Of a DNA stretch of 64,000 bases, positions 17,584 through 20,515 are shown one piece after another. Made by a program: the position numbers and the translations under genes. The first letter of the stretch is position 1. Each line of letters begins with the position of its first letter. The notes beneath the pieces are model-generated. The model searched no databases and was not told where the DNA came from. It saw only the letters and a list, made by a program, of their open reading frames with translations. The DNA comes from Desulfomarina profundi (lineage in GTDB: Bacteria > Desulfobacterota > Desulfobulbia > Desulfobulbales > Desulfocapsaceae), in contig NZ_AP024086.1 of the NCBI RefSeq assembly GCF_019703855.1, forward strand, positions 1,508,501 through 1,572,500, written 5' to 3'.

Positions 17584-18513
17584 ATGGCTATTTCCGTAGT
17601 AGGACATTCTAATCCTGATACTGATTCTGTAACAGCTTCAATTGCACTGGCGGCATTGTTAAATGCACAAGGTCAGGAAGCTCAGGCATGCATGCAGTGC
17701 GCTGCTGCAGATCTCAATCCAGAATCTAAAGTGGTACTGGAAAAGTTTGGCCTTGAAGCCCCTGTAGAAATCAGCGATGCAGCTGGAAAAGATATTGCCC
17801 TTGTTGATTTCAGTGACCTGGCACAGGGACCTGCTAATCTGGCAGATGCAAATGTAGTTGCAGTTGTAGATCATCACAAAGTTGGTGATCTGACCACAAA
17901 CAATCCGATTCTCTTCAGGGCAGAACCTGTAGGATGTACCGGAACTGTTTTGAACAAAATGTTTAAAGAAGCGGGAGTTTCCATACCAAAAAATGTGGCT
18001 GGAGGAATGCTGGCTGCGATTCTGAGTGATACTGTTAATTTCAAATCACCCACCTGCACTGAAGATGACAAAATTGCAGTTAATGATTTGAAAACAGTTG
18101 CCGGTGTGGATGATACCGATGCCCTTTTTATGGATATGCTGAAGGCAAAATCTTCCGTTGACGGAGTGCCGGCAAAAGACCTTCTTTTCCGGGACTATAA
18201 AGATTTCGATATGAAAGGGAATAAGGTTGGAGTCGGCCAACTGGAACTTGCTACCCTTGACCAGGTTGCTGATATTCGTGCTGATCTGATAAAAGCGATG
18301 GAAGAAGTGAAAGCCGACGGAAGACACTCTGTTCTGCTCATGCTCACTGATGTTGTAAAAGAAGGTACGGATCTGGTCGTAATTTCCGATGATCCCGCAC
18401 TGATCGAAAATGCTTTTGGAGGTAAATTAGAAAGCAATTCCATGTGGATTGATGGGATGATGAGCCGTAAAAAGCAGACAGTTCCCAACCTGCAGAAGGC
18501 TTTTGGTTGTTAA
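17584..18513 (+). CDS. ppaC: Manganese-dependent inorganic pyrophosphatase (class II)
   Basis: Cytosolic enzyme hydrolysing pyrophosphate to phosphate. The 309-residue protein has the DHH/DHHA2 layout: N-terminal VVGHSNPDTDSVTAS with metal-binding His and Asp residues, VAVVDHHKVGD (the DHH motif), AILSDTVNFKSPT, and the C-terminal DHHA2 domain ending in MMSRKKQTVP, which binds pyrophosphate. There are no CBS domains, so it is the unregulated form, about the usual 305-310 residues. GGAGGA lies 8 bases before the ATG. It is monocistronic with its own terminator. Confidence 0.95.
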   Translation: MAISVVGHSNPDTDSVTASIALAALLNAQGQEAQACMQCAAADLNPESKVVLEKFGLEAPVEISDAAGKDIALVDFSDLAQGPANLADANVVAVVDHHKVGDLTTNNPILFRAEPVGCTGTVLNKMFKEAGVSIPKNVAGGMLAAILSDTVNFKSPTCTEDDKIAVNDLKTVAGVDDTDALFMDMLKAKSSVDGVPAKDLLFRDYKDFDMKGNKVGVGQLELATLDQVADIRADLIKAMEEVKADGRHSVLLMLTDVVKEGTDLVVISDDPALIENAFGGKLESNSMWIDGMMSRKKQTVPNLQKAFGC

Positions 18514-18543: not shown

Positions 18544-18589
18544 AATAATGGCGGCATGATCTTGAATGAAAGATCATGCCGCCATTATT
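18544..18589. terminator. Bidirectional terminator after ppaC
   Basis: Perfect 20-base arms (18544-18563 and 18570-18589) with a 6-base loop and a GC-rich core (GGCGGCATGATC). It lies between convergent ppaC and the candidate selenoprotein gene. Confidence 0.85.
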
Positions 18590-18607: not shown

Positions 18608-19750
18608 TCAGCTATTTTTGAGATAATCCTCTATTTTCTCTTTCAGTTCGCTGATCATTTTGTCTATGGTTACAGAGCCGCCAGCTTCAGGTCGAATTGG
18701 GAGAAGCAATCCCTTGAACTGGTTTGCTGAAGGATTGTCTGACCGTTCCTTTTCCAGTTTGGAGAATTCCTGGCTGAGATTTTGTTTTCGTTTTTGCAAT
18801 TGAGTACGTTTCTGTACATACAGATCATCGGATAACAAATTCCGTTTGTTTTCCAAGTTTTTTATCTGCTGGTTGACTGAAGCGATTCTCCTTTTGAGTG
18901 ATGTGGTCATCAGGGAATAATCATTTTCCCAACGACTTCCCGGACCAAATTTCAGGACCAGTTTTCCAATATATTTCCCTCTTCCCTTAACCTGGGTCAG
19001 CAGGCAATCACCAAAAACCCGCGGCGCAAAATTACCTCTTTTCTTGTCTGCCGAAATGATGACATCAATTTCGGGAACTGTTCTGGCAATAATCTTGTTC
19101 TGCGCAAAAGGAAGATTCGAGAGAAGAACAATCATATCTGCTTTATTCTTCAGAACTTCAACCTGATCAAACAAAACATCTTTCCAGTTCTTCACTGTAA
19201 AAAACGGTTCATATGTACCGTTTGTCCCTGTCAAACCAATAACAGCAATGTTCAGGCCATCAACTTTTTTTGTAATATATGGGGTAAAAAACAATTCTCC
19301 ATCTGCAGTAAAAATATTTGCTGAAACCCAGGGAAAACGTTTTTCTTTCGTTTTTAAAAAAAACGTTTTCCCTGCAGAAAGATCACTGCCACTTACAGCC
19401 ACAGCATCATATCCTGTTTCAATATAAGCTTGAGTTATAGTTTCAGCCGTCACCAGTTCCGGATAAGTTCGTTTATTTGCTCTCTGTCTTTTGAAAAGAA
19501 GATTCCCAGAATCTACAATGAGAGTTTTGTCTTTCTTGTTTTCAGTTCTCGATTGAATGAAATGTGCCTTACCGGACAGTCCGCCCAGTTGGTTAGCTTT
19601 TCAACCGCAGGGTTCAGTTTCCCCAAGGACCGTATTGGAAAAAAAGAGCACAATATCTGCCTTTGAGTCAGCCCTTGCGAAAGCGGGCAAGGGAATGGAC
19701 GAGTGCAGCATGACAAAGATGAAAAAAACAAAACCATATTGACGTTTCAT
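18608..19750 (-). CDS. Candidate selenoprotein, UshA/5'-nucleotidase-like, in-frame UGA at codon 50
   Basis: Read on the minus strand from the ATG at 19750 (AGGAAA upstream) the frame is open except for one TGA at 19603-19601, codon 50, and then continues to 18608, giving 380 codons. The first 27 residues are a signal peptide (KRQYGFVFFIFVMLHSS...AFA). The stretch around the TGA reads NTVLGETEPCG-U-KANQLGGLSG; related UshA-like proteins have PCGC-(n)-GGL there, so Sec replaces a conserved Cys. Sixteen bases after the UGA a stem ACUGG/CCGGU encloses a 9-base loop starting with G, fitting the bacterial SECIS rule. Downstream are VDSGNLLF, VSGSDLSAG, WVSANIF and a coiled coil. The usual DxH metal motif is not visible. 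Conventional calling would give a truncated 281-residue protein starting at 19453. Confidence 0.82.
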
Positions 19751-19783: not shown

Positions 19784-20515
19784 TCAGGTGGTGATGAGCA
19801 TAAGAAATTCCGTGTTGCCCTTGGGGCCGAGAACCGGCGAAGGAACACACCCCAAATTTTTAAGACCAGACTGCTGAACAAACTGGTCAATTTTTTGGAT
19901 CGCTTCCTGGTGGAGCAGGGGATCTTTGATAACTCCACCAGGGGGTATTTTATCTTTTGTAAGCTCAAACTGGGGTTTTATCAGGGTGAGAATTGTTACA
20001 TTGTCAGAGAAAAGGGTGATAAGCGGAGGAATAAGCTTGGTTATGGAGATAAATGACACATCCATTACACCAAGATCTATCGTTTCACTGATATGTGTTG
20101 GGGTAATATTCCGGGCATTGAACCGTTCGAGGATAACCACTCTCTTATCCTGCCTGAGTTTCCAGGATAACTGGCCGTATGCCACATCAACTGCATACAC
20201 TTTATCAGCTCCATGCTGAAGCAAGCAATCGGTAAAACCGCCTGAAGATGCACCAATATCAATACATACTTTACCTTGAGGAAATAACTTGAAATGGTCA
20301 AGACCTTTTTCAAGCTTAAGTCCTCCTCTTGAAACATAGGGTATTCTTTCCTTGATCCTGATTTGAGCAGCAGGAGGGTAGAAAAAACCAGCTTTATCCG
20401 CCCGAGTATCGTCAACCAGAACTTCACCTGCACCAATCATGGCCCTGGCCTTATCGAGATCAGATGCAAGCCCTTTTTGAACAAGAAGTTGATCGAGTCT
20501 GATGTTTTTTTTCAA
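19784..20515 (-). CDS. tlyA: TlyA-family rRNA 2'-O-methyltransferase
   Basis: A 243-residue protein with an N-terminal S4 RNA-binding domain (residues 5-65: IRLDQLLVQKGLASDLDKA) and a FtsJ/RrmJ-type methyltransferase domain (VCIDIGASSGGFTDCLLQHGA as the SAM-binding motif, later VMDVSFIS and LIKPQFEL). TlyA enzymes methylate 16S and/or 23S rRNA and were once called hemolysins. The stop is followed 33 bases later by the candidate selenoprotein start; a small hairpin (CCTGAAG/CTTCAGG, 19769-19788) overlaps the stop. Confidence 0.92.
   Translation of the reverse strand: MKKNIRLDQLLVQKGLASDLDKARAMIGAGEVLVDDTRADKAGFFYPPAAQIRIKERIPYVSRGGLKLEKGLDHFKLFPQGKVCIDIGASSGGFTDCLLQHGADKVYAVDVAYGQLSWKLRQDKRVVILERFNARNITPTHISETIDLGVMDVSFISITKLIPPLITLFSDNVTILTLIKPQFELTKDKIPPGGVIKDPLLHQEAIQKIDQFVQQSGLKNLGCVPSPVLGPKGNTEFLMLITT

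Follow-up and report, generated by a model that had tools for sequence, protein, structure and literature searches.

A short UshA-like protein of Desulfomarina profundi with an in-frame UGA that is almost certainly read as selenocysteine

A UGA-interrupted gene of the UshA-like family

On the reverse strand of the 64-kb stretch of Desulfomarina profundi DNA analysed here (the window), a long reading frame is interrupted by a single TGA, raising the question of whether this codon ends translation or specifies an amino acid and, in the latter case, what the protein does. The frame runs from an ATG at 19750, with AGGA upstream, to a TGA stop in the same frame at 18610–18608. Translation of its 380 codons (18608–19750) agreed with the first-pass annotation in showing one interruption only, the TGA at codon 50 (19601–19603). 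When this TGA is read as a residue, the sequence continues as ...LGETEPCG-U-KANQLGGLSG..., giving a C48-G-U50 motif. Ordinary (table-11) gene calling yields only 18608–19453, a 281-aa product from a GTG start, as had been predicted. The frame is the sole one on either strand of the window in which at least 20 codons from an ATG to one TGA are followed by at least 200 open codons. We conclude that UGA codon 50 is almost certainly read as selenocysteine (Sec). An N-terminal signal peptide, MKRQYGFVFFIFVMLHSSIPLPAFA (19676–19750, reverse strand, end approximate), was recognised by eye in the translation and is accompanied by a helix at residues 6–17 of the structural model, suggesting a periplasmic location for the product. 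Taken as a whole, the explanation that we consider very probable is Sec incorporation into a periplasmic CxU redox protein built on a disused phosphatase scaffold; within it, the Sec reading is near certain and strongly supported, while the function of the protein is what we infer.

The UshA-like name and the CxU motif, both proposed from the letters alone, correspond to a catalogued family. The protein scores 305.4 bits against NCBIfam NF041198 (UshA_like_PCGU, 'UshA-like (seleno)protein'; cut-off 275), over profile positions 14–383 of 519, and all 42 relatives scanned match the same profile. Like the members of NF041198, it carries the PCGU...GG motif, with a UGA-encoded CxU and Cys in homologues. 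In most members, four CxxCH motifs mark a C-terminal domain; the window protein lacks it and therefore falls short of the full profile length; this cytochrome region is a common feature of the family, not a defining one. Since other short proteins (at L045 and L048) also exceed the cut-off, we regard its absence as a variant and not as a sign of non-membership. The selenoprotein family is already known, and the gene is a new short-form member of it, confirmed as a selenoprotein from raw sequence at a place where ordinary annotation would truncate it.

In 2008, a survey of Global Ocean Sampling data (PMC2398784) already counted UshA-like CxU proteins of COG0737 among the selenoproteins, 76 of the sequences having Sec and 92 Cys, and the family is listed in later reviews (PMC9312934, 2022; PMC13188914, 2026). 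Our literature search found no paper giving the UshA-like CxU family a function, and papers on code expansion in marine deltaproteobacteria and on selenium ecology leave UshA unmentioned. UshA-like selenoprotein family 2 (NF049981) shares the fold family and a similar place for Sec, but has a CxxU instead of a CxU, and the window protein reaches only 36.5 bits against its cut-off of 140. A Pfam search with the window protein returned no informative domain at E values up to 1. Relatives were gathered by family searches of whole genomes; a locus search with the single window protein gave one distant relative only.

Reading of codon 50

The Desulfomarina profundi assembly, a single contig of 4.3 Mb, contains selA (634.6 bits), selB (364.5 bits), the tRNA-Sec gene selC (74.9 bits) and two selD genes (C1:3598297–3599223 and 581421–582347; L024 and L025). 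Since each selD gene carries one in-frame TGA, both are probably selenoprotein genes themselves. The first-pass annotation had made its reading depend on this machinery and on the presence of Cys or Sec at codon 50 in homologues, and both were found. In several well-assembled genomes of relatives (G428, G435, G497, G536 and G416), tRNA-Sec and a family match were detected together with no match to selA, the family match bearing a TGA in G428, G497, G536 and G416. The archaeal-type enzyme SepSecS, sought in genomes that have tRNA-Sec and lack a selA match, was not found; a broken selA stretch is possible in these five.

The GTG-started frame downstream would be expected if the UGA were a nonsense mutation or a sequencing error in a decaying gene, so that this part alone was made. 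Its product would, however, be missing both the signal peptide and the fold's first strand, and the distribution of the TGA argues strongly against decay. In the same genus, the window genome and five of six relatives have a family match, each with exactly one TGA, whose position is identical in the six copies even though the five other proteins are only 42–49% identical to that of the window. Within the order, 193 of 194 genomes contain a match, 153 of them above the cut-off, and among the matches listed the TGA is missing from only about a dozen of the strong ones; most family members across the phylum have it too. Alternation of Cys and Sec at codon 50, claimed at the outset, was evident from the alignment: the motif reads either CGU or, with Cys at exactly the Sec50 site, CGC, and Cys is the only common replacement. 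On a tree of 98 members, computed with the motif columns excluded, at least nine switches between Sec and Cys were counted. Given this conservation and switching, together with SECIS-type selection at synonymous sites (see below), we rejected a pseudogene or sequencing error, which we consider very improbable.

Four genomes of one genus lack both selA and tRNA-Sec, and all four carry CGC, forming a clade nested among Sec copies on the tree; this is the outcome expected if the codon means Sec. UGA is reassigned in some bacteria, but its reading here as another residue such as Trp, or release-factor-limited readthrough without selenium, is scarcely credible and was likewise rejected, given that the gene's own stop is a UGA in the same frame, that the window has no other long TGA-interrupted frame, that the genome encodes tRNA-Sec and the Sec machinery and that relatives substitute Cys, including where the machinery is lost. 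These natural replacements of Sec by Cys, in one case accompanying the disappearance of the entire machinery, make the role of selenium testable.

As a separate observation, one long-form relative (L043, 1–1548) has both residues of the pair replaced (PSGR), its UGA having become CGA and its SECIS stem being gone, which indicates that the Cys/Sec pair is dispensable somewhere.

Downstream of the UGA, a bacterial SECIS-type hairpin was found at 19571–19589 (reverse strand), with a 7-bp stem (ACUGGGC/GUCCGGU) and a loop of 5 nt, GGACU, beginning 18 nt from the UGA. Its G-starting loop had been recognised in the first-pass annotation, although with a 5-bp stem and the loop at 16 nt, which corresponds to the lower part of this 7-bp hairpin. 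According to the bacterial SECIS model quoted in PMC13188914, there should be a loop of 3–9 nt, a stem of 4–16 bp, a free energy of -7.5 kcal/mol or better and a G within the first two loop positions, 16–37 nt from the UGA. Every one of these constraints is satisfied (-8.3 to -9.3 kcal/mol; GG at the start of the loop). Of the window's 2805 TGA trinucleotides, 47 (1.7%), the one at codon 50 among them, are followed by a compliant hairpin of -7.5 kcal/mol or lower. Rfam, run over the whole window at the gathering threshold, gave no match, as expected for a SECIS.

Since the 49-nt stretch by itself was unexceptional against dinucleotide shuffles (z -1.31), the hairpin was assessed by synonymous recoding and by comparison with Cys copies. 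It is more stable than synonymous recodings of the same protein (p 0.008), and by the same measure the mean z was -2.33 in 36 Sec copies as against -0.15 in six non-Sec copies. Of 66 CxU copies, 89% had a contiguous stem of at least 5 bp, as against 7% among 28 Cys copies, a difference (Mann–Whitney p 1.7e-12) that is indicative, the sequences being related; more generally, members of the family are not independent and the p-values overstate certainty. Codon choice differs too, the first Gly codon being GGC in 64 of the 66 Sec copies compared with 12 of the 28 Cys copies. Two outer stem pairs have changed on both sides among relatives, and covariation in the stem exceeded that of all shuffles and slid registers in an alignment picked for having the inner pairs. 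Thus, it is the comparison with relatives and the choice of codons, not the stability of the single sequence, that give the hairpin its significance. We conclude that synonymous sites of the Sec copies are under SECIS-type selection.

Fold and former metal site

The AlphaFold2 model of the window protein (pLDDT 92.8) matches 5'-nucleotidases and SoxB, with Z of about 31 (1ush, 30.9; 2wdc, 30.8), and the protein is thus predicted to adopt the metallophosphoesterase fold of these enzymes. In E. coli UshA, we take the dimetal ligands and the catalytic His/Asp to be D41, H43, D84, N116, H117, D120, H217, H252 and Q254. When the window protein was aligned to E. coli UshA, the residues at these nine positions were T40, L42, N83, G121, S122, S125, N212, D235 and a gap, so that none of the seven metal ligands and neither of the catalytic residues, His and Asp, is retained. 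Most of these positions are replaced across the whole family as well. The former first ligand precedes Cys48 and Sec50 by 8 to 10 residues, and the pair, which comes after the first strand, appears by this alignment to overlie the former metal site.

Could Sec be inserted into what is still a metal-dependent enzyme, a phosphoesterase or a thiosulfohydrolase-like protein in which Sec or Cys takes the place of one metal ligand? Besides the structural matches, such an enzyme would fit the first ligand position, where 27 of 42 relatives retain Asp, and the similarity to SoxB, a dimetal hydrolase: TIGR04486 is the second-best NCBIfam match, although the score is weak (45.5 bits, cut-off 550). The loss of every ligand and of the catalytic pair in the window protein stands against it, and none of the same 42 relatives has Asn at the Asn116 position, while a single one has His at the His117 position. 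In addition, the genome encodes a separate, canonical 5'-nucleotidase-like paralogue with intact GTGDLQG, GNHDF, VTHTG and GGHSHD motifs. We therefore consider a surviving hydrolase improbable. The window protein resembles UshA in its export and its fold but lacks the metal ligands, the His/Asp dyad and the C-terminal nucleotide-binding domain, and it scores 41 bits against the 600 of the UshA equivalog NF007109. Since the metal and catalytic residues are all replaced, no phosphatase role would be expected. The 'redox or metal site' of the first-pass annotation can accordingly be narrowed: a thiol/selenol redox site is favoured, and a classical dimetal site, its ligands gone, is disfavoured.

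In a few close relatives (L068 and L142–L145), the same loop carries CxxU (PCPxU) or CxxC, the spacing having shifted several times.

Proposed role, domain forms and genomic neighbourhood

We propose that SelA, SelB, tRNA-Sec and SelD of this genome decode UGA codon 50 as Sec, directed by the hairpin downstream, and that the product would be carried to the periplasm by its signal peptide. There, Cys48 and Sec50, carried by the loop that follows the first strand, would most probably be joined in a reversible selenenylsulfide and act as a thiol/selenol redox centre at the place of the first two metal ligands. A redox rather than a hydrolytic role is, in our judgement, likely. Electrons may be exchanged with periplasmic c-type cytochromes, the long forms using their own four haems and the short form of the window presumably a separate cytochrome; we hold a link to cytochromes to be about evenly balanced. 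By analogy with SoxB, the substrates might be sulfur or selenium compounds, a tentative suggestion that is rather unlikely to be right as it stands. The electron partner of the window's short form is a guess, because its lineage has neither the haem domain nor an adjacent cytochrome gene, and the genes around it, which look like housekeeping genes, are of little help. For the family as a whole, we give even chances to a metal-free calcineurin-like domain with a CxU, CxxU, CxC or CxxC pair in the loop of the former metal site, originally wired to a four-haem cytochrome domain that some lineages, among them that of the window, lost later on while keeping Sec. These are leads on a functionally blank family: a phosphatase site that appears dead, Sec in the place of the metals and, as the usual partner, a fused four-haem cytochrome.

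The C-terminal domain of most relatives, with its four CxxCH motifs, resembles cytochrome c554; the haem domain is of low confidence in the model of a long form. The window genus and some others have the N-terminal domain only, and the window protein contains no CxxCH. Long and short forms have interchanged at least 11 times on the tree, a count that may include a few rows truncated at contig ends. Proteins of both lengths stand as close sisters on the tree in one genus (L045, L048 and L123), suggesting that the haem domain was lost there recently. An inorganic-pyrophosphatase-like gene (named by inspection; 17584–18513, forward strand) converges on the selenoprotein gene, and a neighbour of this kind was found at 26 loci of the order with both long and short forms, the opposite flank usually being a RarA-like AAA+ ATPase gene (also by inspection). 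Since this neighbour is common to both, long and short forms occupy the same chromosomal locus, which makes the role of the haems testable. Several lineages have cytochrome genes next to a long form, whether with Cys or with Sec: cluster 20 in the genus without Sec machinery, and multihaem neighbours at L131–L133, L140 and L141. These genes, like the similarity to SoxB, a sulfur enzyme, hint at the mechanism proposed above.

A further explanation is that the protein serves selenium supply, for instance as a periplasmic reductase or carrier of selenium oxyanions. In one genus, long-form Cys paralogues adjoin either a selD-like gene (L106 and L107) or a TusA+DsrE (YedF-like) gene (L101 and L104), which hints at a link to selenium or sulfur handling. 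These four loci, however, form a separate clade of Cys paralogues, the selD-like gene was named by inspection, Cys forms also occur in genomes without Sec machinery and the neighbours at the window locus look like housekeeping genes only. We consider a role in selenium supply doubtful and prefer the periplasmic redox protein described above.

Upstream of the selenoprotein gene, a TlyA-like gene (named by inspection; 19784–20515, reverse strand) lies 33 bases away and is probably co-transcribed with it; this neighbour is kept in four of the five same-genus loci examined, the fifth (L092) ending before it. Between the two convergent genes, a perfect 20-nt inverted repeat (18544–18589) probably acts as a two-way terminator.
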